A stretch of 50,030 nucleotides of DNA from Alphaproteobacteria bacterium. Lineage in GTDB: Bacteria; Pseudomonadota; Alphaproteobacteria; UBA2136; JAPPOO01. The position numbers and the translations under genes are program-made. The first letter of the stretch is position 1. Every line of letters starts with the position of its first letter. The notes beneath the pieces are model-generated. The model saw nothing but the letters and a program-made list of their open reading frames with translations. It was not told where the DNA came from and ran no database searches. The stretch spans positions 1 through 50,030 of the forward strand of contig JAPPOO010000037.1 of NCBI GenBank assembly GCA_028817875.1. The letters run 5' to 3'. Shown here piece by piece: positions 3,907 to 46,651 of the stretch.

Positions 3907-5397
3907 TCATATCTTTTTTAAGTATTCTTTAAAAAACAAAGAGATACGAATCCATGCTGTAGGGGAAATAGCCTGAGGAATATGAATATTTTTAGCTATT
4001 ATTTTTTGTGGAGGTAGTTTTTCGACAATATGCCCATAGCCATTCACAACGGCAGAAATGCCTGTGTTGGCGATTCTTACAAGGGGGAGTCCTGTCTCTA
4101 CTGCCCGTAAACGAGCAAGAGCAAAGTGCTGGTATGGTGCAGTTGTGCCGTCAAACCAATTATCGTTAGTAATATTTAGTAAAAACTGTTGGTTTTCAAG
4201 GTGTCGGGCTACATAAAAAGGGAATGAAGTCTCGTAGCAAATAAGAGGAAGTGCCTGAAGATTTTCTTCTAAGTCAAGAACAGGTGGTGCTGTGCCAGAT
4301 GTATAGGTAGCTCGATTAAAGGAAAGTGTGCGTAAAAAACGTTGAGTGATACTGGAAAAAGGGAGGGTTTCGCCAAAAGGTACTAAAATACGTTTGTCAT
4401 AAATAGGGCTAAGGTGAGCACGGTAGTTTATCGTAGAGATGCTATTAAAAGCTTTCTGTCCCTTCTTTTGGTCAAAGTCAAAGCGTAAAAAACCAAGAGT
4501 GAGTTTTTGGTAAGGGCTAAGGTGGCGAGCCAGCATTTGACGTAAACTTGTATCTGAATCTACCTCATAGGCTACGGCAGTTTCAGGCCATATAATATGC
4601 TTAACTTCGGGATCATTTGTTTGCATAAGGTCAACATGCCTATGTAAAAACTCCCGACGTTTAACATCATCCCATTTATGAGCAGTTTCAATATTTGCTT
4701 GTACAAGTCGGACTTTTGTTAGAGGGGTAAACGAGGTGTCACTTTGATATAGTCTATAGTAACCAAAGCCTGCTTGTCCCGCCAAAAGAAGTAATAACGA
4801 TACAAGAGAGGTATAATTAAGTCTTAAGAAACTAGCAGCTAACAAGGCAAAAAAACTAAGTAAAAATACACTGCCAACGCTAGCAAGCTGCATCATAATG
4901 AGGTTGCCAGCAAAAATACTGCCGATAGGGTTCCAAGGGAAATGGATAGGAGGGAAATTTCTTGCAAGTTCAAAAAGTAACCATAAGAAAATAAAGGTCG
5001 CAGTGCGCCACTTTTTAGGAGCTTTGTAAGCAGTTCCAGTAATACATCCAGTAAAACAAGAGAAAATAACTGTAATGAGACAGAGTGCTGGAACACCTGC
5101 CCAAATAGCAGGGCCCCACTGCCCTCCAGCATCAATGTAGAAAGCTCGCGGGATCCAGTATAGAGAAGTTAAATAATGCCCAATACCAAATAGAAAACCA
5201 ACAAAGAACGCTTGTTTGAAAGAGGAGGCGTGCCGCATAAAAAAAAGAAGGCCGCTTAAGGATAAAATGCTAATTGGCCAAAGAAAAAAAGGCGCAAAAC
5301 CAAGCGTAAGAAGAGTGCCAAGAAGGAAGATAGCTCCACCTGTAGGGTAAGAGAGTGATAAACTAGTAAACCGTTGCAATAATAACAGCATGGGCAA
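3907..5397 (-). CDS. lnt: apolipoprotein N-acyltransferase
   Basis: Multi-TM N-terminus plus nitrilase-like domain (IIWPETAV, VPFGETLPF, LICYETSFP, NITNDNWFDGTTAPYQHFALARLRAVETG). Confidence 0.95.
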   Translation of the reverse strand: MPMLLLLQRFTSLSLSYPTGGAIFLLGTLLTLGFAPFFLWPISILSLSGLLFFMRHASSFKQAFFVGFLFGIGHYLTSLYWIPRAFYIDAGGQWGPAIWAGVPALCLITVIFSCFTGCITGTAYKAPKKWRTATFIFLWLLFELARNFPPIHFPWNPIGSIFAGNLIMMQLASVGSVFLLSFFALLAASFLRLNYTSLVSLLLLLAGQAGFGYYRLYQSDTSFTPLTKVRLVQANIETAHKWDDVKRREFLHRHVDLMQTNDPEVKHIIWPETAVAYEVDSDTSLRQMLARHLSPYQKLTLGFLRFDFDQKKGQKAFNSISTINYRAHLSPIYDKRILVPFGETLPFSSITQRFLRTLSFNRATYTSGTAPPVLDLEENLQALPLICYETSFPFYVARHLENQQFLLNITNDNWFDGTTAPYQHFALARLRAVETGLPLVRIANTGISAVVNGYGHIVEKLPPQKIIAKNIHIPQAISPTAWIRISLFFKEYLKKI

Positions 5398-5455
5398 AAT
5401 ATAGCATATTTCTAATAAAAGTCCTTTTTCTTTCCCCTTGCTGTTAAGGGGTAGC

Positions 5456-5469
5456 TTAGAGTACTCTAA
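5456..5469. promoter_or_regulatory. 14-bp perfect palindrome TTAGAGTACTCTAA between lnt and the fibre gene
   Basis: Read directly in the divergent intergenic region 5398-5519. Confidence 0.4.
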
Positions 5470-5519
5470 AAGGCAAATAAATGTAAGAAGGCGTTAATAA
5501 GGGCCCGCATAATATAGTA

Positions 5520-8500
5520 ATGAGAAATATTTCCTCCATCGTTACACTGCTATTTATAGCAGGCGTCGCTTATGCCGCAGATGACTGGGCGAATTTGGGG
5601 ACGGTCTCTAATACAGTAGCAGGATACTTATGCGACGTAACAGATGATGGTAAAGACATTATTTGTGAAGGGCCAAATCCTTACGTTGATAGTAGCGGTA
5701 ATGTAGGAATCGGCACATCTGCCCCCCAAACCGCACTAGAAGTAGCAGGTACAATCTCCGCCACAGGTGTAGAGGTGGCAGGTACTGTAACAGCCACCAA
5801 CTTCGTAGGTGATGGGAGCGGTTTGACAAACGTATCGGCAGGCAGTGCAGACTGGTATGATGTAACCAACATCCCAACAGGCGTAGTCAATATTAGTAAC
5901 ACAGCCCTAGATGCCGCCGAGCTAGGCGAACTCCAAAATATTGACACAACCACCATTTCCGCCGCCCAATGGGATTATGTAGGCGCCCTAGACCAAGGCC
6001 TAAGCACCACAGCAGATGTGCAATTTGCCAACCTAGATGCCAGCAGTATCTCCATCACAGGTCACCTATCAGCAACCACCATCTCCGCCACGTACATTGA
6101 GGGGGATGGCTCACTCCTAACTAATTTAAACCCTGCAGCACTAAGCGGTTATGACGCAGCACGAATCGTATCAGGCACAACAGACATAACCGTCAATGAA
6201 AACACGAGCATTTCGTTTACCACTGCGGGTACTGAGGTAGCAGTCATAGACGCCAGTGGTAATATGGGAATCGGCACATCTGATCCTCAAACTTCCCTAG
6301 AAGTAGCAGGTACAATCTCCGCCACAGGTGTAGAGGTGGCAGGTACTGTAACAGCCACCAACTTCGTAGGTGATGGGAGCGGGTTAACAAATGTACCAGT
6401 TGGAGCTGTAAGTGGATTAGATACAGCTACAATAGTATCTGGAACAACAAATATAACAGCCAATGAAAATACATCAATTTCATTTACTACAGCAGGTACT
6501 GAAAGAGCTGTAATCACTGCTGCAGGAGATGTGGGTATAGGAACCGATGCGCCCGGTACAGAATTAGAAGTTTCAGGAACTATAACAGCAGATTACTTCG
6601 TAGGAGACGGCTCTTTGCTCACGAACATCCCTGCGGCAGCTGTGAGTGGTAGTGTGGGAGCTTTAGATGACTTATCCGACGCGATTACAGATTATGCCAC
6701 CGCCCATAGCATGTACCTCGGCTCTGGCGCAGGCGCAGCAGCAGGTACAACCAGTACTTACAACATAGCTTTAGGTGAAAACGCTTTAGCTGTAAATGAC
6801 GGCGGAGACCGTAACGTGGCTATTGGCTATAATGTGTTAGACGCTAATACGACAGGGCAAGATAATGTCGGTATTGGTTATCAAGTACTAACTGACAATG
6901 CCGCAGGCATTAGGAACATAGGTGTAGGTTATAGCGCTTTGGCAAATAATACATCAGGGCAATCAAACATAGCGCTTGGGTATAATGCCCTAAATCAAAA
7001 CGCAACTGGAAGCGATAATATAGCCATTGGCCTAGTCACATTACAAAATAGTACAGGAAACGATAACATAGGGTTAGGTTCTTGGGTACTCAATGCAAAT
7101 ACTAGTGGATCTAGTAATGTAGCAATTGGTCGTTCCAGCCTAATTAATAATACAACTGCTAACAATAATACTGCTATTGGTTTTAATGTCCTTTATGATA
7201 ATAGAATCGGATCTGAAAATGTTGGAGTTGGATCGTATGCATTATACGATAACACAAATGCTCGAGGAAATACTGGAATTGGATATAATGCGCTGAACGA
7301 TAACGAAGATGGAAACTATAACATAGCAGTAGGGTATAATGCTCTTGATATAGCTAGTGGTCATAGTGTGACAGGAACTGTGGCTGTAGGATATAGAGCG
7401 GGTTACAATGCGCAAAGTGGAGCTAATTATAATACGTTTGTAGGCTACGAAGCTGGTGATAGTATTACCACAGGCTCCAACAACACTTTGTTGGGCTATC
7501 AAGCTGGTGATAGTATTACCACAGGCTCCAATAATATTATCATCGGTCAAGTAGCAGACGCAATTTCCACCACAGCCGATGACCAATTAAACATCGGAAA
7601 TACTATCTACGGAGACTTAAGCACAGACCAAGTTGGTATCGGCGTAACTGCCCCCCAAACCGCACTAGAAGTAGCAGGTACAATCTCCGCCACAGGTGTA
7701 GAGGTGGCAGGTACTGTAACAGCCACCAACTTCGTAGGTGATGGGAGCGGTTTAACAAATGTACCTGCAGGAAGTGCCGATTGGTACGACGTAACTAATA
7801 TCCCAACAGGCGTAGTCAATATCAGTAACACAGCCCTAGATGCCGCCGAGCTAGGCGAACTCCAAAATATTGACACGACAACAATTTCCGCCGCCCAGTG
7901 GGACTACGTCGGTGCCCTAGACCAAGGCTTAAGCACCACAGCAGATGTGCAATTTGCTAACCTAGATGCCAGCAGTGTCTCCATCACAGGTCACCTATCG
8001 GCAACCACCATCTCAGCTACCTATATTTCAGGGGATGGTTCGTTATTAACCAACATTGCCGCAGGTGCGGTTACAATAGGTATTGATGATCTAACCGACG
8101 CTGCGGTAGACTCAACTAACAATAATGTATTCCTTACTCATGAAGGTGGCACTCTTATCAGCCCAACTAGTAACTACAATACAGCTTTAGGGCTTTACGC
8201 GTTGGATGCTTTAGAAGCAGGTGCAGACTATAATACAGCACTGGGTTACAACGCTTTAGGTTTAGCAACAACTGGAGATGATAATACAGCTCTTGGATAT
8301 GATGCATTAAGAAACAATACGACAGGCTCCCAAAACACAGGGATTGGCTCCATAGTATTACAAGCTAATACAACAGGCTCTAACAATACAGCAGTAGGAG
8401 ATGGTGTATTAAGGAATAACACGACAGGCGGAAATAATGTAGGTATTGGTAATGCAGGGACTCTCCAAAATAATGTAATAGGAAGTTACAATATGGCCTT

Positions 8501-10577
8501 TGGGGGAGGAGCACTGAGTTCCAATTTAGTAAGTTACAATGTAGGGTTTGGAAGAAGTGCACTAGCTAATAATGTGAGTGGACAGCAAAATATAGCGATA
8601 GGTGACCGGGCTTTGACTGGGGTTTCGGGGGTATACAGTGTTACTCGCACAATTGCTATTGGAGCTAGCGCTGGATATGAAGTAGAAACTGGTGCTGACA
8701 ATAATGTATTTATTGGTTATCGCTCTGGGCATGATGTTACCACAGGTGCTAACAACACATTTCTTGGGTACCAAGGAGGTGATAATGTTACTACAGGTTC
8801 CAACAATATTATTATCGGTCAAGATGTAAATGCCGTATCTGCTACTGCCGACGACCAACTCAATATCGGAAACACCATCTACGGTGACCTAAGTACAGAT
8901 CAAGTCGGTATTGGCGTAACCGATCCTCAAACTGCATTAGAAGTAGCCGGCACAATCTCCGCCACGGGTATAGAGGTGGCAGGTACAGTAACAGCCACCA
9001 ACTTCGTAGGTGATGGGAGTGGTTTAACAAATGTAACTGCAAGTGGTGCAGACTGGTACGACGTGACGAATATCCCGACAGGTGTGGTAAATATTAGTAA
9101 TACGGCGCTAGACGCTGCTGAGCTAGGCGAACTCCAAAATATTGACACAACAACAATTTCCGCCGCCCAGTGGGATTACGTGGGTGCCCTAGATCAAGGT
9201 CTGAGCACCACAGCGGATGTGCAATTCGCTAATTTGGATGCCAGCAGCGTCTCCATCACAGGTCATCTATCTGCAACCACCATCTCCGCCACGTACATTG
9301 AGGGGGATGGTTCGTTATTAACCAACATTGCCGCAGGTGCGGTTACAATAGGTATTGATGATTTAACAGATGCAGCAGTAGATAATACAAATAATAACGT
9401 GTTCTTAACTCATGAAGGTGGCGCTCTTATCAGTCCAACTAGTAATTTTAATACAGCGCTGGGCATAAACGCACTAGACTCTTTAGAGACTAATGCTGAT
9501 GGTAATACAGCTATTGGTTATAATGCATTAACGGCTAACACAACAGGTTATCAAAATACTGCTGTTGGTTACCGTGCACTAGCTGATACAACCACAGGGT
9601 ATTTTAACTCAGCATTTGGTCATGATGCTCTTTGGAAAAATACAACAGGCTATCGTAATACGGCATTGGGGTACGCGACTCTCAGCGAAAATACAACAGG
9701 CCGAGAAAATGTTGCAGTTGGCTATGCCAGCTTAGTAAATAATACAACAGGTATTTGGAATACAGCTGTAGGGGTAAATACTTTAAATGGGAATACAACG
9801 GCTAATGGGGGAGCGGCATTTGGCTATGGGGCATTGCAATATAATCAATTTGGTGCATACAATATAGCTATTGGTAAAGACGCTATGCACTACAATGTAA
9901 ATGGAGGTAGCAATGTAGGTATAGGATCAAATGCGCTGCGCGGGGTAAGTAGCCATAGCACAACAGGAACCGTAGCTGTTGGAGCTAATGCAGGACTTTC
10001 TATCCAAAATGGTTCAAACTACAATACGTTTGTAGGCTACCAGTCAGGTGATAGTATAACCACTGGTGCTCAAAATACTTTTTTAGGTTACCAATCTGGT
10101 CAAAATGTCACCACAGGTTCCAATAATATTGTTATTGGTCAGGCCGTAGACGCAATTTCTACCACAGCTGATGACCAACTCAATATCGGAAACACCATCT
10201 ACGGAGACCTAAGTACAGACCAAGTCGGTATCGGTATAACTGACCCGCAAGCTGCCTTAGAAGTAGCCGGTACAATTTCATCTACAGGTGTTATTGTAAC
10301 TGGAACTGTGACAGCAACAGCTTTTGTAGGAGATGGTTCTGCCCTTACAGGCATAGCTGGTGATAATTTAGGTGACCATACTGCCACCCAAGCTTTAGAT
10401 ATGGCAGGGTTTGATATAGATGCAGCGGGTACAATTTCTGCTACTGCCGTAAGTGCAACAACAGTATCAACTACAATTATTCAAGTAGGAAGCGCTTCTG
10501 TAACTTGTAGTAATGATCTTCTAGGCTCTCTTTACTACGATACTGTAACTGGAAGGATGCATATATGTCGTCCGTAA
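5520..10577 (+). CDS. giant secreted modular fibre/adhesin-like protein (1685 aa)
   Basis: Signal peptide MRNISSIVTLLFIAGVAYA. Repeated 'VGIGxxxPQxxLEVAGTIxATxFVGDGSxLTN' shaft-like modules and many YadA-head/Hep_Hag-like 'NxAxGxxAL..NTTGxxN' repeats. No beta-barrel anchor seen at the C-terminus. Confidence 0.85.
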   Translation: MRNISSIVTLLFIAGVAYAADDWANLGTVSNTVAGYLCDVTDDGKDIICEGPNPYVDSSGNVGIGTSAPQTALEVAGTISATGVEVAGTVTATNFVGDGSGLTNVSAGSADWYDVTNIPTGVVNISNTALDAAELGELQNIDTTTISAAQWDYVGALDQGLSTTADVQFANLDASSISITGHLSATTISATYIEGDGSLLTNLNPAALSGYDAARIVSGTTDITVNENTSISFTTAGTEVAVIDASGNMGIGTSDPQTSLEVAGTISATGVEVAGTVTATNFVGDGSGLTNVPVGAVSGLDTATIVSGTTNITANENTSISFTTAGTERAVITAAGDVGIGTDAPGTELEVSGTITADYFVGDGSLLTNIPAAAVSGSVGALDDLSDAITDYATAHSMYLGSGAGAAAGTTSTYNIALGENALAVNDGGDRNVAIGYNVLDANTTGQDNVGIGYQVLTDNAAGIRNIGVGYSALANNTSGQSNIALGYNALNQNATGSDNIAIGLVTLQNSTGNDNIGLGSWVLNANTSGSSNVAIGRSSLINNTTANNNTAIGFNVLYDNRIGSENVGVGSYALYDNTNARGNTGIGYNALNDNEDGNYNIAVGYNALDIASGHSVTGTVAVGYRAGYNAQSGANYNTFVGYEAGDSITTGSNNTLLGYQAGDSITTGSNNIIIGQVADAISTTADDQLNIGNTIYGDLSTDQVGIGVTAPQTALEVAGTISATGVEVAGTVTATNFVGDGSGLTNVPAGSADWYDVTNIPTGVVNISNTALDAAELGELQNIDTTTISAAQWDYVGALDQGLSTTADVQFANLDASSVSITGHLSATTISATYISGDGSLLTNIAAGAVTIGIDDLTDAAVDSTNNNVFLTHEGGTLISPTSNYNTALGLYALDALEAGADYNTALGYNALGLATTGDDNTALGYDALRNNTTGSQNTGIGSIVLQANTTGSNNTAVGDGVLRNNTTGGNNVGIGNAGTLQNNVIGSYNMAFGGGALSSNLVSYNVGFGRSALANNVSGQQNIAIGDRALTGVSGVYSVTRTIAIGASAGYEVETGADNNVFIGYRSGHDVTTGANNTFLGYQGGDNVTTGSNNIIIGQDVNAVSATADDQLNIGNTIYGDLSTDQVGIGVTDPQTALEVAGTISATGIEVAGTVTATNFVGDGSGLTNVTASGADWYDVTNIPTGVVNISNTALDAAELGELQNIDTTTISAAQWDYVGALDQGLSTTADVQFANLDASSVSITGHLSATTISATYIEGDGSLLTNIAAGAVTIGIDDLTDAAVDNTNNNVFLTHEGGALISPTSNFNTALGINALDSLETNADGNTAIGYNALTANTTGYQNTAVGYRALADTTTGYFNSAFGHDALWKNTTGYRNTALGYATLSENTTGRENVAVGYASLVNNTTGIWNTAVGVNTLNGNTTANGGAAFGYGALQYNQFGAYNIAIGKDAMHYNVNGGSNVGIGSNALRGVSSHSTTGTVAVGANAGLSIQNGSNYNTFVGYQSGDSITTGAQNTFLGYQSGQNVTTGSNNIVIGQAVDAISTTADDQLNIGNTIYGDLSTDQVGIGITDPQAALEVAGTISSTGVIVTGTVTATAFVGDGSALTGIAGDNLGDHTATQALDMAGFDIDAAGTISATAVSATTVSTTIIQVGSASVTCSNDLLGSLYYDTVTGRMHICRP
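5838..6088 (+). repeat. 251-bp stretch identical to 11789-12039
   Basis: Base-by-base comparison in the displayed sequence shows no differences over 251 nt at offset 5951. Confidence 0.9.
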
Positions 10578-10651
10578 TATATATGTTAGTAAACTTGTTG
10601 CCGTATAGAGGATGTGTTAGCGTCGATCAAGTAGAAAAAAAACAAAGAAAA

Positions 10652-13600
10652 ATGCCTCCATTGACAAAAAAATTTGTCACGGTACTGATTTTATGCAGCT
10701 CTTTCGGGGTAGTCACTTCCTACGCTCAAAGCTGGGGGAAAATCGCAACAGCAGCAACAACAACAGCAGGCTATTTATGTGATGTAACCAGTGATAGTAA
10801 AGACATCATTTGTGAAGGCCCAAACCCATACGTAGACGCAAGTGGTAATTTAGGTGTAGGCACAATTACGCCAACAACAGCTTTAGAAGTAGCCGGGGTT
10901 GTTTCTGCTAGCGCTTTTGTAGGTGATGGCTCAAGTTTGACCAACATTGCCGCAGGTGCGGTTACAATGGGTATTGATGATCTAACAGATGCAGCGGTAG
11001 ATAATACAAATAATAATGTGTTTTTAACTCATGAAGGCGGAGCAGCAGGAGCCAATAATGACTATAACATAGCTATAGGACAAACAGCTTTAGATTCACT
11101 TGACAATGATGCAACAGCCAATGCAGGGGATTGGAACGTAGCTGTAGGGTATGATGCCTTAACAAAAAATACAGTAGGACATGGTAATGTAGCGATAGGT
11201 GGGATGGATGCGCTAAGCGAGAATATCTCAGGAGACTACAATATAGGTATTGGTAGAGAGGCGTTAGAGGAAAACACTGTAGGAAGGGGAAATTTAGGAA
11301 TAGGGTACCGTGCTCTTACCTCTAACTCTGTAGGGAGTCATAATATTGGTTTGGGTTATTTAGCTTTAAACGGTATAGCAGGGCACAGTGTAACAGGTAC
11401 AGTAGCTATTGGTTATCAAGCAGGGAGCGGTGCTCAAACAGGTGGGAATTACAACACATTGATAGGTTATGAAGCTGGGGAATCAATAACAACAGGTACA
11501 AATAACGTAACATTAGGCTATGAAGCTGGAGATAATATAACAACTGGCTCTAATAACATTGTTATTGGTCAGGCAGTAGACGCCGTATCCACCACAGCCG
11601 ACGACCAACTAAACATCGGGAACACCATCTACGGAGACCTAAGCACTGACCAAGTTGGTATTGGCGTAACTGACCCACAGGTTGCTTTAGAAGTAGCAGG
11701 TACAATCTCCGCTACAGGGGTAGAGGTAGTAGGCACAGTAACAGCTACTAACTTCGTAGGTGATGGAAGTGGTTTGACAAATGTGCCAGCAGGCAGTGCA
11801 GACTGGTATGATGTAACCAACATCCCAACAGGCGTAGTCAATATTAGTAACACAGCCCTAGATGCCGCCGAGCTAGGCGAACTCCAAAATATTGACACAA
11901 CCACCATTTCCGCCGCCCAATGGGATTATGTAGGCGCCCTAGACCAAGGCCTAAGCACCACAGCAGATGTGCAATTTGCCAACCTAGATGCCAGCAGTAT
12001 CTCCATCACAGGTCACCTATCAGCAACCACCATCTCCGCAACGTACATTGAAGGTGACGGTTCACTCCTAACCAACATTGCTGCAGGTGCAGTTGCAATG
12101 GGTATTGATGATCTAGTTGACGGAGAATACAATCTAACAACAGATAATATGTTTATTGGTCACCAATATGGAACAGCTCTAACAAACAATACAGGAAATC
12201 TTGCAATTGGTGAAAATGCGTTAGATTCACTAACTGACAGCGCAACAGGTAGTGAAGGCGATTTTAATACAGCAATAGGCTTGAGTGCGTTAACTGCTAA
12301 TACAACGGGGTATAACAGTACAGTAATAGGTTATCAGGCAGCTTTAAATAATACAGTAGGAGACCGATTATTAGCAGTTGGTTCAAGTTCTCTACGTAAT
12401 AATATTGCAGGGGTTGATAATGTTGGATTAGGTGTAAGCTCTTTGCACTATAACCAAGGAGGAGACGGAAACACAGCTATTGGTGGGTATGGCGTATTAC
12501 GAGGTAATGCTGTAATGGATGTAAGTTTTAATGTAGCTATTGGTAGTGGAGCTGGCTACAATATAGCCACTGGTGCAGATAATAATGTATTGGTAGGTTA
12601 CGAGGCTGGTAACGTTGTAACAACAGGTGCCAATAACACCTTTTTTGGCTATCAAGCGGGTGATAATATTACAACTGGCGACAATAATATTGTCATTGGC
12701 GCAGGTATAGATGCTGTATCCACCACTGCTGACAATCAACTAAACATCGGAAATACTATCTACGGTGACCTAAGTACAGATCAAGTTGGTATCGGCGTAA
12801 CTGACCCCCAAACTTCCCTAGAAGTAGCAGGCACAATCTCTGCCACAGGTGTGGAGGTAGCTGGTACAGTCACAGCAACTAACTTTGTAGGTGATGGGAG
12901 CGGTTTGACAAATCTATCTGTTAGTGGAGATCAAATTGTAAGTGGTACAACCAGTGTAGTAGCAAGTGAAAATACAAGTCTAACTTTCACCACTGGTGGT
13001 ACAACAGCCATGGTAATCGGAAGTGATCAGCAGGTTGGTATCGGTACTGACACACCAAGCGATACTTTACACATCCATACAGATAACGGTAGAATTCGTT
13101 TATCTCATTCTGCCACAAATACTGTAAATCAAATTCTCTTTTACGAAGATGCCACATTACAGGCGAGCATAGGGGTTCTTGGTACGGCACATGCTGCAAC
13201 AGATCGCCAAAATAATATGGAAATTAATACACGTAATAGTGGAGATTTGATTTTCCAAACTTTGACAGGGTCGGGTAACATTGGGGTAGGAACAGATATA
13301 GCAAGTCAAACTCTAACTGTAAGTGGTACGGCTTGGATAAAAGCTGCACAGTTTGATCTTGTAGGTGGAGCCTCTGCACCAATTTCAGTGACATCAACAT
13401 CAGAAGTAGATGGTGCAGCTGGAGCAGTTCAATTTAGTGACGGGTCAAACTTTGCGTCTGATGCAACCAACTTTTTCTGGGACGATACAACCAACCGTTT
13501 AGGGCTAGGTACAGGAGCGCCAAGTGCAACTCTACATATAAGCGGTACAATGATCTTAGCTGATGGCGGAGAAAGTTGTGATGCAACAATTATAGGAGCT

Positions 13601-13945
13601 ATTAAATACACTAGTGGAGATTTGTACGTATGTGATGGTTCTTCTTGGTCTACCGTTGGAGGAAGTGCAACATCTATATCTGATAGTGATAATGATACAA
13701 TGATTACACTAGAAAATGCAGGCGATACAGATACTATCTCCTTCACAACAGCTGGAAGCGTAGCAGTAGTAATCGACAGTAGCCAAATGGTAGGTATAGG
13801 GACTGAGTCACCAAGCGAAACCTTGCATGTAAACGGAGCTGTACAAATCGCAGGGCAAAGTGCAAATGACTGTACGGCGACGGAGCACATCGGTAAAATC
13901 CATCTAAACCCAGCAACTAATAAGTTGCAATTATGTAAGCCATAA
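10652..13945 (+). CDS. second secreted modular fibre/adhesin-like protein (paralogue, ~1097 aa)
   Basis: Start set at MPPLTKKFVTVLILCSSFGVVTSYAQ, giving a signal peptide. Same N-terminal AGYLCDVTSDSKDIICEGPNPYVD domain and same modules as the preceding gene. Confidence 0.85.
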   Translation: MPPLTKKFVTVLILCSSFGVVTSYAQSWGKIATAATTTAGYLCDVTSDSKDIICEGPNPYVDASGNLGVGTITPTTALEVAGVVSASAFVGDGSSLTNIAAGAVTMGIDDLTDAAVDNTNNNVFLTHEGGAAGANNDYNIAIGQTALDSLDNDATANAGDWNVAVGYDALTKNTVGHGNVAIGGMDALSENISGDYNIGIGREALEENTVGRGNLGIGYRALTSNSVGSHNIGLGYLALNGIAGHSVTGTVAIGYQAGSGAQTGGNYNTLIGYEAGESITTGTNNVTLGYEAGDNITTGSNNIVIGQAVDAVSTTADDQLNIGNTIYGDLSTDQVGIGVTDPQVALEVAGTISATGVEVVGTVTATNFVGDGSGLTNVPAGSADWYDVTNIPTGVVNISNTALDAAELGELQNIDTTTISAAQWDYVGALDQGLSTTADVQFANLDASSISITGHLSATTISATYIEGDGSLLTNIAAGAVAMGIDDLVDGEYNLTTDNMFIGHQYGTALTNNTGNLAIGENALDSLTDSATGSEGDFNTAIGLSALTANTTGYNSTVIGYQAALNNTVGDRLLAVGSSSLRNNIAGVDNVGLGVSSLHYNQGGDGNTAIGGYGVLRGNAVMDVSFNVAIGSGAGYNIATGADNNVLVGYEAGNVVTTGANNTFFGYQAGDNITTGDNNIVIGAGIDAVSTTADNQLNIGNTIYGDLSTDQVGIGVTDPQTSLEVAGTISATGVEVAGTVTATNFVGDGSGLTNLSVSGDQIVSGTTSVVASENTSLTFTTGGTTAMVIGSDQQVGIGTDTPSDTLHIHTDNGRIRLSHSATNTVNQILFYEDATLQASIGVLGTAHAATDRQNNMEINTRNSGDLIFQTLTGSGNIGVGTDIASQTLTVSGTAWIKAAQFDLVGGASAPISVTSTSEVDGAAGAVQFSDGSNFASDATNFFWDDTTNRLGLGTGAPSATLHISGTMILADGGESCDATIIGAIKYTSGDLYVCDGSSWSTVGGSATSISDSDNDTMITLENAGDTDTISFTTAGSVAVVIDSSQMVGIGTESPSETLHVNGAVQIAGQSANDCTATEHIGKIHLNPATNKLQLCKP
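11789..12039 (+). repeat. 251-bp stretch identical to 5838-6088
   Basis: See the partner copy. Two further intragenic copies (~7770-8030 and ~9040-9300) are diverged, mostly at synonymous sites. Confidence 0.9.
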
Positions 13946-13947
13946 AA

Positions 13948-14343
13948 ATGAAAAATAGCCTTTTACTAATTTTACTTTTTACATGTTTTATATACGCAGC
14001 AAATGCTGTTTGTTCTAACCCAGCAGGGGAAGAAGGCGAGCAAATTTATAATTTAGATCATAAGGTTATGCAGTATTGTGACGGCACCAATTGGCAAGCT
14101 ATGGGGGCTATACAAAGTAATATTCAAGGCTATGAAAGGATAACAAATAATTGCGGTAGCACGACAACTTGCACGGTATCATGTTCTGCTGGAAAAGAAG
14201 TGCTAGGGGGAGGGTGTGTACTAGATGCTCCTGGTAGTGGAAGTGTATATAGAACATATCCTCCTTCCAATAGTGCTTGGGAGTGCACGACAACGGGCAC
14301 TATTGTTATTACAGCATATGCTATTTGTGCAGAAATTCAGTAG
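13948..14343 (+). CDS. small secreted Cys-rich protein, third gene of the fibre cluster
   Basis: Signal peptide MKNSLLLILLFTCFIYAANA. Motif 'GEQIYNLDHKVMQYCDGTNWQAMG' is related to segments in the two large proteins. Starts 2 nt after the preceding stop. Confidence 0.75.
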   Translation: MKNSLLLILLFTCFIYAANAVCSNPAGEEGEQIYNLDHKVMQYCDGTNWQAMGAIQSNIQGYERITNNCGSTTTCTVSCSAGKEVLGGGCVLDAPGSGSVYRTYPPSNSAWECTTTGTIVITAYAICAEIQ

Positions 14344-14344
14344 G

Positions 14345-15205
14345 TTAAACTTTTTGTACCGTTATTTCTAGCAAACGTCGCCCATCAGATTTACTGACAG
14401 AAAACTTGAGATTATCAGGTGCAAGAACAGATTCACCTTGAGTTGGAACTCTTCCGGCTAGAGAAAATATATAGCCGCTAACAGTTTCAAAATCTTCTTC
14501 GTCCATAGGTTCTGGCAAACTAAAAAAAGTTCTAAAATCTTGCATAGGCATCTTAGGGTCCAACTTATAGCTACCGTTTCCTAAAGGTAAGGGCATCATA
14601 CACGGAGCTTCTTCAGCATCTTCATCCTCTAAATCACCCACAAGCTCCCCTAACACATCTTTTAAGGTTAGTAGGCCTGCTGTGCCTCCATACTCGTCTG
14701 TAACAACAGCAATAGCAGCACGTTGCTTTTTCATACGTTGAAGTACACGGTCAACGCTTAAGGTTTCCGGTAAGAAAGTAGCAGGGCGGATGAGGTCTTT
14801 TAGCTTAAAATCAGCCTCTTTACCGACATAAGAAATAACATCCTTAAGAGAAAGAAAACCTTGGACATCATCTAAATCCTCCCCAATAACAAGCAATCGA
14901 GCTTTTCTTGAAGTTTGAAAAATTTTCAAAACCTCAGGAAAGGAACAGTCAGATTTAATAAAAACAATGTCAGAACGAGGAAGGGCAACATCATCAGCAA
15001 CAAGTGTATCTAATTGCAAAGCCGCAGAAATCAAAGAGCGCTCGTGCTCAGTAAGAGGCTCGTCTTCTTCTACTTGGTTAAGCTTGCGTAGGTTTTGCCA
15101 CTCTTGTTCTGTATCATTACTAAACAAGGCGTAAGCCTTACGTCGCCAGTGGCTTAAAAAGCTTTCCTTGCGGCCACTATCATTTGTACTGCTATCATCC
15201 ATCAT
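14345..15205 (-). CDS. corC: CBS-domain CorC/TlyC (hemolysin-like) protein
   Basis: Tandem CBS-like motifs (VIGEDLDDVQGFLSLKDVI, AIAVVTDEYGGTAGLLTLKDVLGELVGDLEDE) and CorC_HlyC C-terminal domain. Overlaps ybeY by 4 nt. Confidence 0.92.
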   Translation of the reverse strand: MMDDSSTNDSGRKESFLSHWRRKAYALFSNDTEQEWQNLRKLNQVEEDEPLTEHERSLISAALQLDTLVADDVALPRSDIVFIKSDCSFPEVLKIFQTSRKARLLVIGEDLDDVQGFLSLKDVISYVGKEADFKLKDLIRPATFLPETLSVDRVLQRMKKQRAAIAVVTDEYGGTAGLLTLKDVLGELVGDLEDEDAEEAPCMMPLPLGNGSYKLDPKMPMQDFRTFFSLPEPMDEEDFETVSGYIFSLAGRVPTQGESVLAPDNLKFSVSKSDGRRLLEITVQKV

Positions 15206-29253: not shown

Positions 29254-29688
29254 TTACTTACGGGGGAGTTCTTGATAACTCTGCCCTTGCCAAACAAGTT
29301 CTATGTCATCAATTGCAATAAGATTAAAACCATTACGAATATCTTTAGAGATATACATCTCAGTACCAAATAAGACATTTAGTAGTTGCCACGCACTGTC
29401 ATATTTTTTAAAAATAGCATGCATGCAGCCTGCCATACCGCAGTAATCTTCATGCTTTAAAAATAAGATATATTCATTTGCACCATCATGGTCTAAGTCT
29501 ACAGCTCTCTGCGTTAAAAAAGGCAAGTACTCTAAATCTATACTCAGCTGGTGCATAAAGGTGAGTATGGTCGTATCTTCTTGAGCAGGTTCAAAAGCCA
29601 GCGGTTTATTTGGCGCAGGCTGTAAAAGATACCAACCAAAAATAACAGTGATAAGTAAGACCAAAAGAATAGAAAGTATTTTTTTCAT
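29254..29688 (-). CDS. membrane-anchored periplasmic hypothetical protein with 'DLDHDGANEYI' and Cys-pair motif
   Basis: N-terminal TM/signal segment, YCGMAGC motif. Start codon overlaps the stop of the upstream gene (TAATG). Confidence 0.7.
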   Translation of the reverse strand: MKKILSILLVLLITVIFGWYLLQPAPNKPLAFEPAQEDTTILTFMHQLSIDLEYLPFLTQRAVDLDHDGANEYILFLKHEDYCGMAGCMHAIFKKYDSAWQLLNVLFGTEMYISKDIRNGFNLIAIDDIELVWQGQSYQELPRK

Positions 29689-30581
29689 TATTTAATCAAT
29701 CCCGCCCTTTTTAGATAACCCTCAGGGTTATGTTGCTGGGACTTCGGTCCGCAAACATTCGTTTTCATACATGTAACCCCTCCGTTAACGCCATAAGTGT
29801 GAGCCAAAGTTTGAGCAATAACCTTAGCCTGACTACCACTAGCCCCGTAGCGTTGCCCTGCTAAATTAGTAAGAGTACCAAAGTTTTTATGGTTTAGGTT
29901 TCTATTTGTTAAGTTCGTGAAAGCTTGCTCCTGTAGGCTTGGACTTGCAAGAAACTGTTGAGCTGTCAGATTTGGCATACCAAGTACATCACGCGCATAG
30001 GTCATTCTAAATCCGTATTTACCATAGGCACCATTAAGATGATCTCGGCCATAGTCATTAGGGTTACCTGTTTCTGCTATAGCAATAGCATTGTTAAGTG
30101 TCCCATTATATTGGGTAGCAGCCCCACCAATACTTTGGTATTGGGAATAATTCGGATTTGTAGCCTCCATAGTCAAATATGGTCGCAACCGCTCACTTCC
30201 AAAATCACAGTTAGTATCCTTTCCGGCAAATTTGTGTTGTAGCTGATTACCACCACTTTCAAGCGGAGCTGTAATGGTTTCAACAGCATCAATACCCGCC
30301 TCAAACCAACCTGGGATAGCCGTCAATAAAACACCACTTAAAATAAAAATAAGTGTACTGGTAGAAACGCCTCTAAAAATAAGAGAAATAAATCCCACTG
30401 CAGAGATAGCCAAACCAATGAGAATACCGATATCACCACTCATGGTGGTTGCCACTTGGCAGTAAAATTCCTTAGCAAGCGCTTGGGAAAAGGCGTCATG
30501 AGGGCTACTACGGCCACTGGCTGCCAAAACCATCTGAGGAACAGCTAACAAAAGCCCAAAAACAATAAAACCTAACCGCAT
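29688..30581 (-). CDS. VirB2/TrbC-like pilin domain fused to a lytic-transglycosylase-like C-terminal domain
   Basis: Signal peptide, two TM segments (DIGILIGLAISAVGFISLIFRG, TLIFILSGVLLTAIPGWFEAG), then 'AIAIAETGNPNDYGRDHLNGAYGKYGFRMTYARDVLGMPNLTAQQFLASPSLQEQAF', resembling transglycosylase/lysozyme-like domains. Confidence 0.65.
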   Translation of the reverse strand: MRLGFIVFGLLLAVPQMVLAASGRSSPHDAFSQALAKEFYCQVATTMSGDIGILIGLAISAVGFISLIFRGVSTSTLIFILSGVLLTAIPGWFEAGIDAVETITAPLESGGNQLQHKFAGKDTNCDFGSERLRPYLTMEATNPNYSQYQSIGGAATQYNGTLNNAIAIAETGNPNDYGRDHLNGAYGKYGFRMTYARDVLGMPNLTAQQFLASPSLQEQAFTNLTNRNLNHKNFGTLTNLAGQRYGASGSQAKVIAQTLAHTYGVNGGVTCMKTNVCGPKSQQHNPEGYLKRAGLIK

Positions 30582-30970
30582 GAAACTGATACCTGCGTAC
30601 CGCCACTGCCAAGTGGTGCAGTAATTTGTTCAACCGCATTAATTCCCGCTTCAAACCAACCGGGGATGGCTGTGAGTAAAACACCGCTCAGCATCAAAAC
30701 AATATTCCCCATAGAAACACCATTAAAAATAAGGGAAATAAACCCCACAGCAGAAATAGCCAAACCAAGCAAAATACCAATGTCCCCGCCCATGGTTCCC
30801 GCCACTTGGCAATAAAATTCCTTAGAGCGCGTTAACGCATATTGGCCTTCTTTGTCACCAACTGTAACGGTTGCTGCATGTAAAAGTGTTGGAAAGTAAA
30901 CATAATAACAAACCAAAACAGCAACATACCATGCTGTTTGGCTGGTTTTTTCTCCACAACGGTCACTCAT
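30572..30970 (-). CDS. VirB2/TrbC-like pilin family protein, paralogue of the preceding pilin domain
   Basis: 'EFYCQVAGTMGGDIGILLGLAISAVGFISLIFNGVSMGNIVLMLSGVLLTAIPGWFEAGINAVEQITAPL' is nearly identical to the fused protein's pilin domain. Start set at MSDRCGEK; the ORF extends to 31018. Confidence 0.7.
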   Translation of the reverse strand: MSDRCGEKTSQTAWYVAVLVCYYVYFPTLLHAATVTVGDKEGQYALTRSKEFYCQVAGTMGGDIGILLGLAISAVGFISLIFNGVSMGNIVLMLSGVLLTAIPGWFEAGINAVEQITAPLGSGGTQVSVSCG

Positions 30971-31224
30971 ACTCCAAATATAGGGAGATTTAGCCCGAAA
31001 TACCAGCATGTCTTGCAAATAGTTTTATTATTTTTGGCTAAATTCGTTGGCGTATGCCATTTTTTGGGGTATAAGCAGCTATTACATAGAAATCAAAAGA
31101 GTAAAAAGCGGTTGTAGGGCGGTTTGAAGCGGTAAAGCGGCGGGTGATAAATTTCCTTAACGGGTTCTCCTAGTTTTCCTTATCTATTCGGCGGAAATAC
31201 AACCAACGACAGAGGAAACGAAAA

Positions 31225-42103: not shown

Positions 42104-42883
42104 CTACCCCGTCAACCTCCGCGGGTAGTCCAAATTATCAATAATCTGGTTAGCAAGGGTGGATAACCCTTCTGACGCCTTTGTATTGGGGAAAGCCTGC
42201 GTTACCAACTGCTGCATTTTTACAGCCGCCGCGTAGTTGCGGTCGTAAGGAACCTGCCCAAAAACAGGCACGCTCACACCTAAAAAATTCTTGGCCGCCG
42301 TCACAATTTTTGTCGCCGTTTGCTGGCCTTCCGTAACACTCGCTGCTTGGTTCGCAATAAGGTGGCAACTCTGGTTATCGTACCGCTTGGCCAGCAATTT
42401 AATAATCGCGTAGGCATCCGTAATCGCACTGGGGTCGGGCGTTGTTACAAGCAGGGTCTTATCCGCACAAGTACACAAACTCAGCACGTTTTCATCCAAC
42501 CCCGCAGGCACATCAATAAAAACAGCATCAAAGGAAGCAGCAAGTTGTTTAAGCTCTTCCAGCAAATTATGCCGCTGTAACGCATTCATAAAAGGAAGGT
42601 TTTGCGTGCCGCTACGGCCGGGAATCAACCAAAACCCCTTGTCAGATTTCACCATAATATCCTGCAACGTCGCTTGACCACGCAAAACGTCGGAAAGGTC
42701 TTTCTCCGTCGTCAAACCAAGCTGAACATCCGCATTGGCAAGGCCAAAGTCTCCATCAAAAACAGCAACTTTTTTCCCTTTTTTAGCGAGTAAATGCGCC
42801 AAGTTAAGGCAAATGCTGGTTTTTCCAACGCCGCCTTTGCCGCTAGCAAAAGCAAAAATAGGTGTGGATTGAAAAGACGTCAT
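42104..42883 (-). CDS. flhG: MinD/ParA-like ATPase FlhG (FleN)
   Basis: FASGKGGVGKTSICLNLAHLLAKKGKKVAVFDGDFGLANADVQLGL; overlaps flhF by 4 nt. Confidence 0.9.
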   Translation of the reverse strand: MTSFQSTPIFAFASGKGGVGKTSICLNLAHLLAKKGKKVAVFDGDFGLANADVQLGLTTEKDLSDVLRGQATLQDIMVKSDKGFWLIPGRSGTQNLPFMNALQRHNLLEELKQLAASFDAVFIDVPAGLDENVLSLCTCADKTLLVTTPDPSAITDAYAIIKLLAKRYDNQSCHLIANQAASVTEGQQTATKIVTAAKNFLGVSVPVFGQVPYDRNYAAAVKMQQLVTQAFPNTKASEGLSTLANQIIDNLDYPRRLTG

Positions 42884-43896
42884 GCATCAACCTCCCATAT
42901 TGGTTTTGGTGGAGTCGTAAGCTGTTGTGCCAGTAGCGGAGCCGTCAATTCGCATGGGCCACTCTGAATCGCATTGCTGTCACTAACAAGCCCGCACGGC
43001 AGTTTTTGCGCCATCATCACGCTGGCAATGGGGCCAAGGCGGGTTGTTTCATCCAATTTGGTAAAAACAAGGCTGCTGGGGTTTAAATGCCTAAAAGCGT
43101 AGGGCAGGGCGGCCATATCCGTTTCGTTCAAGTTGGCAGGTAACACAAGGTGTACGGTTGTGGGCAAACCAAGGCCATCTAACCGTTCCTTAAACTCAAT
43201 AATTTCCCGAGGCTTACGCGGGTTCAACCCTGGCGTATCAATCAAAAGATAATGCCGCTTCCCAAGGCTTTTAGCTGCTGTTGCAAGGTCTTCCGTACTG
43301 CGGATAAGATGCGCCTGCTCACCAAGGGCATCGCCCACAATATTCAAAGGTTCAAACCCAGCAATTTTCTGATCGTCTAAAGACATCAACCCGATGCTTG
43401 CGCCACTGCGCTGACGGTCAACCGCCAACTTGCACAAAAATGTTGTTTTACCCGCGCCCGTTGGGCCAACCACAACATGCGCCTGCCCACGCGGAAAAAG
43501 ATCAGCAGGAGCTTTAAAAGAAATCATCTTGCTCATGACCATTTCCAAGGCGTCAGTCGGGCTAAAACCCGCTTCCACAACACCATGAGTCGCCTTGCTC
43601 AACTTCTCGGAATACTCAGGCAAAATGCTGTGCTCGCGCAAAGCTTCCATAAGGTTGCTCGGCGCAGCCGTAGAACCATTGCTCGGTGCCATAATAGGCG
43701 TAGGAGAAATCTCAATCGTCTCTGCATCGGTAGTTGACGTAGAACGTTCCAACGCGGCGGTAATTTCCAACGTGGTTTTACCTTCAGGCGTCTTCACTTT
43801 GCGGGTGGAAAGAATCACCGCGTCACGGCCAAGGTCGTTCTTAATCAGCCGCAAGGCGGCCGCCATATCCGGAGCAGTGAAGGTTTTAAGTTTCAT
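42880..43896 (-). CDS. flhF: flagellar SRP-like GTPase FlhF
   Basis: MKLKTFTAPDMAAALRLIKNDLGRDAVILSTRKV, VVGPTGAGKTTFLCKLA, DTPGLNPR, FTKLDETTRLG. Confidence 0.92.
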   Translation of the reverse strand: MKLKTFTAPDMAAALRLIKNDLGRDAVILSTRKVKTPEGKTTLEITAALERSTSTTDAETIEISPTPIMAPSNGSTAAPSNLMEALREHSILPEYSEKLSKATHGVVEAGFSPTDALEMVMSKMISFKAPADLFPRGQAHVVVGPTGAGKTTFLCKLAVDRQRSGASIGLMSLDDQKIAGFEPLNIVGDALGEQAHLIRSTEDLATAAKSLGKRHYLLIDTPGLNPRKPREIIEFKERLDGLGLPTTVHLVLPANLNETDMAALPYAFRHLNPSSLVFTKLDETTRLGPIASVMMAQKLPCGLVSDSNAIQSGPCELTAPLLAQQLTTPPKPIWEVDA

Positions 43897-43966
43897 ACAA
43901 TTTACTTATACGGCATTTTCACCGCTTTTACTAGCTGACGCTAAAAATGCTTGACCAAACACAAAC

Positions 43967-43977
43967 GTATACATAAA
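43967..43977 (+). promoter_or_regulatory. GTATACATAAA motif, 62 nt before the gene at 44029
   Basis: Identical 11-mer at 34622 and 47137. Confidence 0.4.
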
Positions 43978-44028
43978 AAGAAGCACGAAATACTTATCAT
44001 TTAGCACTAGACATTAAAGGAGGTCGCG

Positions 44029-44682
44029 ATGCGCGCCCATAAAACATTTAACCCACAAGAAACATATCCTAACCGCCAAATCATTTTATTTTGTTCAGCA
44101 GGCATTAGCGGAGGAATCCCGTCTAACTCTAGCAAAGCAATTCATAAAAAAGGGACGGATATTGTTATCTGCGGTAAGAGAACCCGCAAAAGCGATACAG
44201 GTGATGAATCCCAAGCTGAAGCTTTGCTTCAGTGGGCAGCGAAAAATTGGGATAATGGAGGTGTAAATTTTAATCACACCGGCCTGGCAATATTGTCAAT
44301 CTTTCCATACTCTCTTGAAGATGCCTACGAGCGTCTTGTCCAAGGCCTACCTCATGGTGTAATGATCGATATCGTGTTAGATAGCACCTTCGCATCAGCA
44401 TATGAGGCTCAGTTGCGCGCAATCAACGAGGAGTTTTTCAAAGATCGCGTGAAAATTCACGCCAGCTATTCACCTATAAGCAGTAGCTACGCAAATTACT
44501 ACAATGCACTGCTATTCTTGAGAGGAGCGATCTCTTCAACAGGAAGCTGGAAAATCATCAAATTTCCTTGGCAGTTCTTTTGGTTCGCGGTTGACCGAGC
44601 CATCAACAAAGAGCCAAAAAACTTTGTAACAAAATTTCTCGCTTGGTGTGCTAGCAAAGCTCTGCCAAAGCATATGCGCTAA
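44029..44682 (+). CDS. hypothetical protein (217 aa)
   Basis: Strong SD (aaaggaggtcgcg) before ATG; no family recognised. Confidence 0.7.
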   Translation: MRAHKTFNPQETYPNRQIILFCSAGISGGIPSNSSKAIHKKGTDIVICGKRTRKSDTGDESQAEALLQWAAKNWDNGGVNFNHTGLAILSIFPYSLEDAYERLVQGLPHGVMIDIVLDSTFASAYEAQLRAINEEFFKDRVKIHASYSPISSSYANYYNALLFLRGAISSTGSWKIIKFPWQFFWFAVDRAINKEPKNFVTKFLAWCASKALPKHMR

Positions 44683-44701
44683 GCACCTATTACCAACAAA
44701 A

Positions 44702-44735
44702 GGAAAAGGAGGAAACACCACCCTCCTTTTTCTGT
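44702..44735 (+). terminator. intrinsic terminator
   Basis: AAAAGGAGGaaacaccaCCCTCCTTTTT. Confidence 0.75.
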
Positions 44736-44854
44736 ACAAACTCTCCCAAGCCCTCAAAATCCCTATTCAAAATTTCTTTAGGGGGTGTTAAGTCTCAAAA
44801 TGCGCCCTATAACATCTTTATTGCCGATAAGTACAAAATAAACTAGGTTCGGGT

Positions 44855-45631
44855 ATGTTTTTTGCGGAAGTTGATTTAACAGTTTGGGCGTATGTTGCTG
44901 CGTTTGTCGTCGTATTCTTAGCCCAAATGTACGGAGCCGTCGCAAGCGGCGATGGCCTAATCATCCAGCCCATTTTAGTCGCCCTCGGCGTACCTGCCAA
45001 TGCCGCCATGGCAAACGATACAACAGGTTCCGCTTTCGCAGGATTTTCCTCCGCATGGGTTTACTACAAAAACGGCCTTTTATCATTCAACACGCTGCTA
45101 TGGTGGGCACCTGGAATTATACTCGGCCCCATAGCAGGAGCCATCCTTCTTGCGTATCTGCCGCTTATCGCGCTAGATATCCTTATTGTCGCCTCATCCA
45201 TCGCAGGGGCTGCCTACTTTTTGCTACGGCGTAAAAGCAAAACACAAACCTCTAAAGTAGGAACAAGCATTAACCGCCTATGCTCTGTTATCTTTGGTTT
45301 TATCGTAGGGTTTTTAACGGGGCTAGGCCTTGGTGGCGTTGGCATTATTACTAAAATGCTCCTTATCGCGTCAGGGCTTGATATCAAACGCGCCAGCGCA
45401 ATATCCAGCGTTATCGGTACCGTACCTATTTTTCCCGCATTTTTTGCTTACCTTGTAGCTGGCCTTATTTCACCGCTGTTATTACTTGTTATTTCCGTGG
45501 CTTTTGCTACAGGCTCTTACGTTGGCAGCCATATTGTTATCCGTATGGATACCGCATTGCTAGAGCGTATTTTCATGGTCTCAACCATCCTCATATCCAT
45601 CTTCATCCTCGCAATGAAGTTTATAGGTTAA
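44855..45631 (+). CDS. TauE/SafE-family sulfite/anion exporter-like permease
   Basis: Polytopic; 'GDGLIIQPILVALGVPANAAMANDTTGSAFAGFSSAWVYY', 'GFLTGLGLGGVGIITKMLLIASGLDIKRASAISS'. Confidence 0.85.
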   Translation: MFFAEVDLTVWAYVAAFVVVFLAQMYGAVASGDGLIIQPILVALGVPANAAMANDTTGSAFAGFSSAWVYYKNGLLSFNTLLWWAPGIILGPIAGAILLAYLPLIALDILIVASSIAGAAYFLLRRKSKTQTSKVGTSINRLCSVIFGFIVGFLTGLGLGGVGIITKMLLIASGLDIKRASAISSVIGTVPIFPAFFAYLVAGLISPLLLLVISVAFATGSYVGSHIVIRMDTALLERIFMVSTILISIFILAMKFIG

Positions 45632-45731
45632 ACCGTTAACCTCCAAAACCCACTTGCATTACGCGCCACAGGCTCTATTCTATGCACATTGCGCTTCGGC
45701 GCACCTAACCTTTTCAAGGGAGATATTGATA

Positions 45732-46106
45732 ATGTCAAAATCAATGGAAAAACTGCAACCTATCTTAGAAGCTCTCCAAACTGGGGAGATGATGGTAACG
45801 CTCACAGTTAAGTGGTTTGCTTTAGCGCAAAGCAACACAGTTTACCATATGTTCACCACTAATAACGTAGCTACAGCTCTATTTGATGGTAGCGATCCTA
45901 CCTGTCCAAGGCCTTTTCATAATGACAAAGTAGAGGGGAAAGAACTCTCTTTTGAAGAAGCTCTAACTCTATTGATCAAAGATCTAGACCCTCGGATAAA
46001 AATCTGCAAAGAACTCCGTGTCGGCGTTGCGAAGATGGAGAAGCCTCGTGAAGAGCTGGCATCTGTAACTTTAGACGGGTGGCAAGTTAAGGCACTAATA
46101 AGGTAG
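45732..46106 (+). CDS. small hypothetical protein (124 aa)
   Basis: Start set at MSKSMEKL preceded by aagggagat; followed by AAACAGGtCATGC..GCATGgCCTGTTT stem-loop. Confidence 0.65.
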   Translation: MSKSMEKLQPILEALQTGEMMVTLTVKWFALAQSNTVYHMFTTNNVATALFDGSDPTCPRPFHNDKVEGKELSFEEALTLLIKDLDPRIKICKELRVGVAKMEKPREELASVTLDGWQVKALIR

Positions 46107-46243
46107 GTTCCTTTGAAGAAGAAAACAGGTCATGCAATACGCATGGCCTGTTTCTCGTTGGAAAGGGAGATATTCCAACTCATAAATCACCATAGGGGTT
46201 GATTTTCAACCAAAGCTCATCTATCTACCTAAGCATGTAAAGC

Positions 46244-46261
46244 GTTTTAAACTGTAAACTT
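46244..46261 (+). promoter_or_regulatory. shared 18-nt upstream box GTTTTAAACTGTAAACTT (copy 2)
   Basis: Identical to 33-50, same 33-nt distance to ATG. Confidence 0.55.
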
Positions 46262-46276
46262 CATAAGGATTCTACA

Positions 46277-46651
46277 ATGACGACAGAAGTAGAAGAAATC
46301 CCAGTAACCAGCATGCATTTTTACGATCAAAAGGGAACTTTTGAGATTGAGTTGGAAAAAGCTCATCCTGTATTGGGTGAAAAACTGACCATTCCAGTAG
46401 CTGAGCTAAACGAAGCACTATCCGTGATTAACCTCCTTGCAGGAGCAAATAATCCAGAGCTACCGAAAGCAACAGGAGTAAATGGTACAGAAATCACAGT
46501 AAATTCTAACTTTTCGGAAAATAAATTGACCGCACACTGGAACGGTGGCGGGGAAGCACATCTCATGTTGGGCAAAGGTGGCTTTAAAAAACTTATAGAT
46601 GCCACTGCTCTGATCAGCGAAAAATACTTTGGCAAGGAAACAGCCATATAA
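46277..46651 (+). CDS. small hypothetical protein (124 aa)
   Basis: RBS ataagga; followed by terminator AATAACCCCAGA..TCTGGGGTTATT. Confidence 0.65.
   Translation: MTTEVEEIPVTSMHFYDQKGTFEIELEKAHPVLGEKLTIPVAELNEALSVINLLAGANNPELPKATGVNGTEITVNSNFSENKLTAHWNGGGEAHLMLGKGGFKKLIDATALISEKYFGKETAI

Follow-up and report, generated by a model that had tools for sequence, protein, structure and literature searches.

How might a bacterium display giant secreted fibre proteins that have no visible outer-membrane anchor and no binding tip in their own chains, and what does the small cysteine-rich protein encoded right behind them do? The question is raised by three genes, ORF1, ORF2 and ORF3, that are packed tightly on the plus strand within positions 5520–14343 of the window, the whole stretch of 50,030 nucleotides analysed here, an alphaproteobacterial contig from an uncultured bacterium with a small genome. 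A sequence-only reading had described two giant secreted repeat ORFs and a 131-residue Cys-rich secreted ORF in tandem, and all three were found. It took them for a secreted fibre or adhesion-like system, which our results support. It also offered the third protein as an assembly or anchoring component, which is most likely wrong because the hairpin of this protein family is constant while its adhesin-like C-terminal domains vary. We propose with a probability of roughly 0.55 that the cassette encodes a secreted fibre system resembling the mosaic adhesive trimers (MATs) of Bdellovibrio, with ORF3 as a separate tip.

Results

A cassette between two housekeeping genes

The cassette is oriented opposite to the flanking lnt and corC genes. 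These two adjoin each other in eight relatives, and the cassette of the window was therefore inserted between them. The ORF2 stop and the ORF3 start are 2 bp apart, the ORF3 stop and the corC stop 1 bp. Cassette and window have the same GC content (43.9% versus 44.4%). A consensus scan of positions 5200–14700 found promoter-like sites no commoner than in shuffled sequences, so no promoter is claimed for the divergent region where one is expected (Table 1).

A phase-variable inversion of ybeY-corC-lnt was considered and ruled out, as metK is divergent from ybeY in the relatives too and the cassette is not flanked by inverted repeats. The gene order lnt-XRE regulator-metK hints at Alphaproteobacteria; an alpha_tmRNA search of the host genome was negative.

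All three proteins begin with Sec signal peptides, as had been claimed before. Read by eye, the signal peptides end between AGVAYA and ADDW in ORF1, between VTSYA and QSW in ORF2 and between YAANA and VCSN in ORF3. An alternative ATG at 10565 would extend ORF2 to 1126 residues and overlap the end of ORF1. The start was taken at 10652 because the signal peptide begins there, and the upstream start would add an unlikely leader.

Table 1. Positions of the cassette genes, their modules and neighbours in the window, and loci of the ORF3 family
Feature	Position	Strand	Basis or remark
lnt	3907..5397	-	left neighbour of the insertion; LNT_N, CN_hydrolase
Divergent intergenic region, 122 bp, lnt (-)/ORF1 (+)	5398..5519	+	position; expected promoter place
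ORF1, 1685-aa secreted fibre protein	5520..10577	+	ORF, translation, motif reading
ORF1 N-module (DDWANLGTVSNTVAGYLCDVTDDGKDIICEGPNPYVDSSGN, two Cys; ~40 aa)	5580..5700	+	common to fibres across the host's order
300-nt shaft unit, first copy (VGIGTSAPQTALEV...GDGSGLTN...DWYDVTNIPTG...)	5703..6002	+	DNA identity
ORF1 array 1, 17-residue NxAxG repeats	6762..7586	+	motif spacing
ORF1 array 2, 17-residue repeats	8178..8858	+	motif spacing
ORF1 array 3, 17-residue repeats; predicted regular beta solenoid	9450..10178	+	spacing, structure model
ORF1 terminal Cys hairpin CSNDLLGSLYYDTVTGRMHICRP	10506..10574	+	motif reading; runs to the last residue
ORF2, 1097-aa secreted fibre protein	10652..13945	+	ORF, translation
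ORF2 array 1	11066..11608	+	motif spacing
ORF2 array 2	12266..12739	+	motif spacing
ORF2 internal full Cys hairpin CDATIIGAIKYTSGDLYVCDGSSWSTVG	13577..13660	+	motif reading
ORF2 terminal Cys hairpin CTATEHIGKIHLNPATNKLQLCKP	13871..13942	+	motif reading; runs to the last residue
ORF3, 131-aa Cys-rich secreted protein; proposed separate fibre tip	13948..14343	+	ORF, homologues, adjacency
ORF3 N-terminal Cys hairpin CSNPAGEEGEQIYNLDHKVMQYCDGTNWQAMG	14011..14106	+	motif; weak Mtd_N match
ORF3 C-terminal domain, 6 Cys (SCSAGKEVLGGGC...WECTTTG..ITAYAICAEIQ); proposed binding domain	14107..14340	+	no homologue
corC	14345..15205	-	right neighbour; CBS, CorC_HlyC; contiguous with lnt in relatives
ORF3-family loci adjacent to a fibre gene			window, L137, L142, L184:5656, L147, L186, L187, L188
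ORF3-like loci without a fibre gene in front (6/14)			L185, L184:11589, L190, L191, L192, L193

Anatomy of the fibre proteins

ORF1 consists, in this order, of the signal peptide, the N-module, shaft modules, three arrays of 17-residue repeats and a terminal Cys hairpin. It has only four cysteines, which are paired at either end (C38/C49 and C1663/C1683). The terminal hairpins of ORF1 and ORF2 measure 23–24 residues and correspond to the short Cys motif previously noticed at both C-termini.

The shaft units join VGIGTxxPQTALEVAGTISATGVEVAGTVTATNFVGDGSGLTN to a segment DWYDVTNIPTG... and are repeated at the DNA level. Further copies of the 300-nt unit lie at 7632, 8904 and 11654, making four in all, with 84–91% identity to the reference copy. 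Another unit, of 141 nt, is present in seven copies. Fibre length may thus be changeable by recombination between the repeated shaft units. The spacer LNIGNTIYGDLSTDQVGIG occurs five times and follows each array in ORF1.

The NxAxG motifs of ORF1 and ORF2 are spaced by exactly 17 residues in 26 of the 39 neighbour pairs and by 16 or 18 residues in six more. The YadA head repeat has a period of 14 residues. The arrays had been described as YadA-head/Hep_Hag-like, a description that the period and the lack of Pfam matches do not support. As had been suggested, the window proteins were searched with the profiles of YadA_head, Hep_Hag, Peptidase_S74 and YadA_anchor, and none matched. The sole Pfam repeat match was Chlorovi_GP_rpt, above the cut-off in ORF1 (30.8 bits) and below it in ORF2 (19.6 bits).

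The arrays match strongly the PHROG families of tail-spike and virion-structural proteins. The array region is common to at least 80 viral contigs, and arrays are found also in 19 genomes, mostly of Bacteroidota. The viral matches mostly span the array region (about residues 215–1602) and not the N-module. A single-chain model of ORF1 array 3 (pLDDT 65, with the array part mostly at 65–82) has regular short solenoid-like strands. Its fold search matched viral fibre-like predictions only, with no solved structure at E <= 0.001 in the PDB.

The capping loops number five in ORF1 and five in ORF2 by a narrow pattern and 11 in all by a slightly wider one, versus 0.004 expected from 2000 shuffles. 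They carry the motif that Caulton et al. (2024, PMC10769870) give as the MAT consensus, V-G-G/N-x-x-x-P-x-x-x-L. The best solved sequence relative is the MAT protein Bd2133 (8ond), at a marginal E of 0.036–0.07; the capping loops align in register.

Relatives in the genome and the order

ORF1 has matches in 15 of the 18 genomes of the host's order, the host included; 43 further genomes from the class gave none. Searching other genomes for the N-terminal domain, another earlier suggestion, located the N-module across the order. In 17 aligned fibres both of its cysteines are invariant and the C-terminal ends differ. The ends seen in the order are S74, a terminal Cys hairpin and a lectin-like domain (L188, by eye).

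S74 exceeds the Pfam cut-off in 13 of the 18 genomes, nearly always within large frames, and the S74 fibres of close relatives carry the same N-module. No S74 was found in the cassette or anywhere else in the host genome, and no YadA_anchor in any of the 18 genomes, with E. coli as the positive control. The sequence-only reading, which had seen neither an S74 domain nor a YadA barrel, was right on both counts. Judged by sequence, the host lineage has both S74 and non-S74 fibre forms, as the Bdellovibrio MATs do.

The host genome contains at least three more such fibre genes, on contigs C47, C38 and C60. The C47 fibre has 1584 residues and the same terminal hairpin; those on C38 and C60 are cut by contig ends. 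All related loci inspected have housekeeping neighbours and no capsid, terminase, baseplate or tail genes, and homologues inside phage morphogenesis clusters, named earlier as the finding that would speak against a bacterial fibre system, were looked for and did not turn up.

A second base type, RFFTxSGGxRG or KFFSTPxRGG, follows the signal peptide at L131, L134, L139, L012 and L220–L223 (G197). In genomes G002 and G007 it is found on a hairpin-ended fibre just upstream of an N-module fibre. At L132 and L135 of these two genomes, which belong to one genus, a fibre gene immediately follows genes of flagellar type, judged by eye to be MotA-like and others. The Micavibrio genome paper mentions neither 'fiber' nor 'hemagglutinin'.

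A Cys hairpin shared by shafts and small proteins

The Cys hairpin forms the last residues of 14 fibres and comes first after the signal peptide in the proteins of the ORF3 family. In ORF3 the mature N-terminus, read by eye, is one residue upstream of the hairpin. One protein of G002 (L194) unites in a single chain a short shaft, the hairpin and a C-type-lectin-like DUF1554-like domain (27.1 bits; cut-off 27.5).

Such hairpins are rare, being present in 8 of 290 genomes of the class, three of the eight from the host's order. With a stricter limit applied phylum-wide, they remain in 2 of 399 genomes, one of which is the host's. They also occur in unrelated secreted proteins, for instance the plasmid-encoded 'Ig domain-containing' proteins. 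Outside the order, G253 and G254 tandemly encode lectin-like proteins with hairpins at start and end.

The G253 locus has some further features. A giant fibre frame (L213, L214; G253:C12) has a prepilin-like N-terminus, by eye, and an S74-like C-terminus. The tandem proteins behind the giant fibre are lectin-like (Laminin_G_3), and some of them begin and end with a Cys hairpin.

A profile of the hairpin matched no meaningful solved structure. Four of 15 hairpins match Mtd_N (best 4.6e-5), all below the Pfam cut-off of 26.3 bits, with ORF3 at 14.5 bits and the best relative at 23.7. In the Bordetella phage, Mtd is a separately encoded receptor-binding tip, and its N-terminal domain joins the tip to the fibre. 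ORF3 directly follows the fibre gene ORF2, as is expected of an Mtd-like tip.

The ORF3 family

A genome-wide sequence search with ORF3 in the host's order yielded a family with a common plan: a signal peptide, one to three hairpins (CTxPxGxAGxVIYNxTxKxMQYCNGTNWVxxG) and then a changing C-terminal part. The latter can be an FG-GAP propeller (up to 463 bits), a BNR/YCF48-like propeller, Gly-rich, fibrinogen-C or S74. Between pairs of putative tips the hairpins are 53–83% identical, and C-terminal domains that differ in fold are about 23–34% identical in a permissive alignment. What is new here, from sequence comparison, is this mosaic family, in which the N-terminal hairpin is conserved and the C-terminal domains are unrelated to one another.

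The C-terminal domain of ORF3 itself has no homologue beyond noise in phages, viral contigs and the 399 genomes of the phylum. Plasmid matches to ORF3 cover mainly the signal peptide and the hairpin. A single-sequence model of ORF3 was poor (pLDDT 55) and unfit as a structure query.

Of 14 loci, eight have an ORF3-family gene immediately following a fibre gene; these eight are not fully independent, several of the genomes being close relatives. The two genes overlap or are separated by at most 6 bp. Tandem copies are found at L137 (four, G001) and L142 (three, G015). One further ORF3-like locus, L189, is truncated where its contig ends. Hairpin-ended fibres with no tip gene behind them occur at L132, L135, L143 and L145.

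Possible export routes and other surface loci

Secretins are encoded in all 18 genomes of the order. The host genome has a type IVb-pilus-like cluster (L247) of a secretin, a TcpQ-like protein, T2SSE, T2SSF and a prepilin-like protein. Another prepilin-like protein (L248, 947–1633 of G000:C47) is encoded directly behind the hairpin-ended C47 fibre gene and resembles that of L247 over 49 residues (pairwise E 6e-7). The pilus cluster, this C47 neighbour and the prepilin-like start of the G253 fibre are mere leads to a pilus-like export or base.

Three small minus-strand ORFs at 29254–31018 of the window have no Pfam match. Two of them, 29688–30581 and 30572–31018, share a tandem-paralogous stretch (EFYCQVAGTMGGDIGILLGLAISAVGFISLIF...) that is VirB2/TrbC-type pilin-like. 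Positions 42104–49822 hold flhF, flhG (by eye) and flhA (FHIPEP), which suggests a polar flagellum. Elsewhere in the host genome, L195 (G000:C39, 2310–11951) encodes a giant adhesin of Cadherin/Big repeats, 1242 aa, with a TolC-like protein, an ABC transporter, a membrane-fusion protein and a Peptidase_C93 (LapG-like) as neighbours, as in a Lap-type adhesin system.

Discussion

ORF3 is probably a separately encoded, detachable and exchangeable adhesive fibre tip and not an anchor. We read it as a tip because the hairpin that closes the fibres also opens the proteins of the ORF3 family; stacking of the tip on the shaft is the simplest reading.

In the proposed system, ORF1 and ORF2 would be long Sec-exported shafts, probably trimeric, with the conserved N-module as the cell-proximal base as in the Bdellovibrio MATs. 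The beta-solenoid arrays and the capping-loop modules would supply length, and the disulphide-closed beta hairpin would close the distal C-terminus of the shaft. The N-terminal hairpin of mature ORF3 would stack on this terminal hairpin and carry a small disulphide-rich putative binding domain outward. Three tip chains would sit on three shaft chains, much as though one continuous fibre had been divided at the hairpin. We infer the trimerisation, the disulphides, the surface display, the docking, the ligand binding and the use in cell-cell or cell-surface attachment.

The MAT superfamily comprises the mosaic adhesive trimers that Caulton et al. (2024, PMC10769870) described in one predatory bacterium, Bdellovibrio bacteriovorus, and in which shaft and binding tip are fused. 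The window fibres resemble them in the signal peptide, the long modular shaft, the capping loops of V-G-x-G-x-x-x-P-x-x-x-L, the conserved base with exchangeable ends, the S74 and non-S74 subgroups within the lineage and the several members per genome. However, their base module is about 40 residues with two cysteines before the first capping loop, whereas the MATs have a beta-rich domain of about 130 residues. Moreover, the window fibres have 17-residue arrays and marginal sequence similarity to the solved MATs, and end in the Cys hairpin rather than a globular tip, the tip being apparently a separate gene. Neither ORF1 nor ORF2 has the adhesive tip or S74 in the same chain that marks a MAT. 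The system probably works like a MAT fibre; we call it a MAT-like variant whose tips are probably separate and do not file it as a MAT.

The likeness of ORF3 to the phage protein Mtd lies in the weak hairpin match and in the proposed role of a tip encoded apart from its fibre. ORF3 differs in being cellular and Sec-exported, in its Cys-paired hairpin and in a C-terminal domain that is not the Mtd lectin.

ORF3 and its relatives could instead be independent secreted lectins or matrix proteins, merely co-transcribed with the fibres and unattached to them. The orphan genes at L185, L184:11589, L190 and L191 would suit this, and so would the hairpins of the unrelated plasmid proteins, but the frequent adjacency to fibre genes, the same hairpin at the fibre ends and the succession of hairpin and lectin-like domain within one chain make it rather unlikely, though a possibility to reckon with. 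A role of ORF3 in fibre assembly or anchoring is less probable still. It would explain a small, Cys-rich, operon-terminal protein next to fibres in which no anchor is visible. However, an anchor should keep its membrane-facing part, whereas the relatives keep the hairpin and vary the C-terminal domain. ORF3 also has no visible outer-membrane beta-barrel or lipobox, and G013 encodes a 2408-aa fibre with no separate ORF3-like gene found.

That the cassette encodes tail fibres of a prophage or tailocin, or recent phage remnants, is hardly credible in spite of the viral families, contigs and folds that its arrays match. Array and capping-loop modules are indeed common to phage tail fibres and spikes, including those with S74. 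Yet the window proteins have Sec signal peptides, no S74 and an N-module that is order-wide and mostly outside the viral matches, and they share with all related loci inspected a chromosomal housekeeping context. A prophage origin was rejected, as this context lacks phage structural genes. Equally far-fetched is a type Vc trimeric autotransporter with an unrecognised anchor. The long secreted proteins with head-like repeated arrays recall YadA, and YadA_head does match two relatives, L131 and L134, but none of the 18 genomes of the order has YadA_anchor, the C-termini consist of either a soluble hairpin or an S74 chaperone and not of a beta-barrel, and the repeat period is 17. A YadA-type autotransporter is thus ruled out by the C-terminus and the anchor search, barring an unknown barrel.

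Beyond the tip role of ORF3 in this cassette, we advance more tentatively, and at somewhat less than even odds, that exchangeable tip proteins, each encoded by its own gene, cap generic MAT-like shafts in trans through the shared Cys hairpin. If so, one shaft gene could show several specificities, which is what the tandem set of four putative tips in G001 suggests. The double-hairpin proteins of G253 and G254 might even link several separate chains head to tail.

Binding specificity would then be altered by swapping a small gene, with no rebuilding of the fibre, which would be cheap for small-genome bacteria. The arrangement can be likened to that of phages with separate receptor-binding proteins. 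A hairpin followed by a variable domain, encoded behind a fibre gene, would define a family to look for in further lineages of predators or host-attached bacteria.
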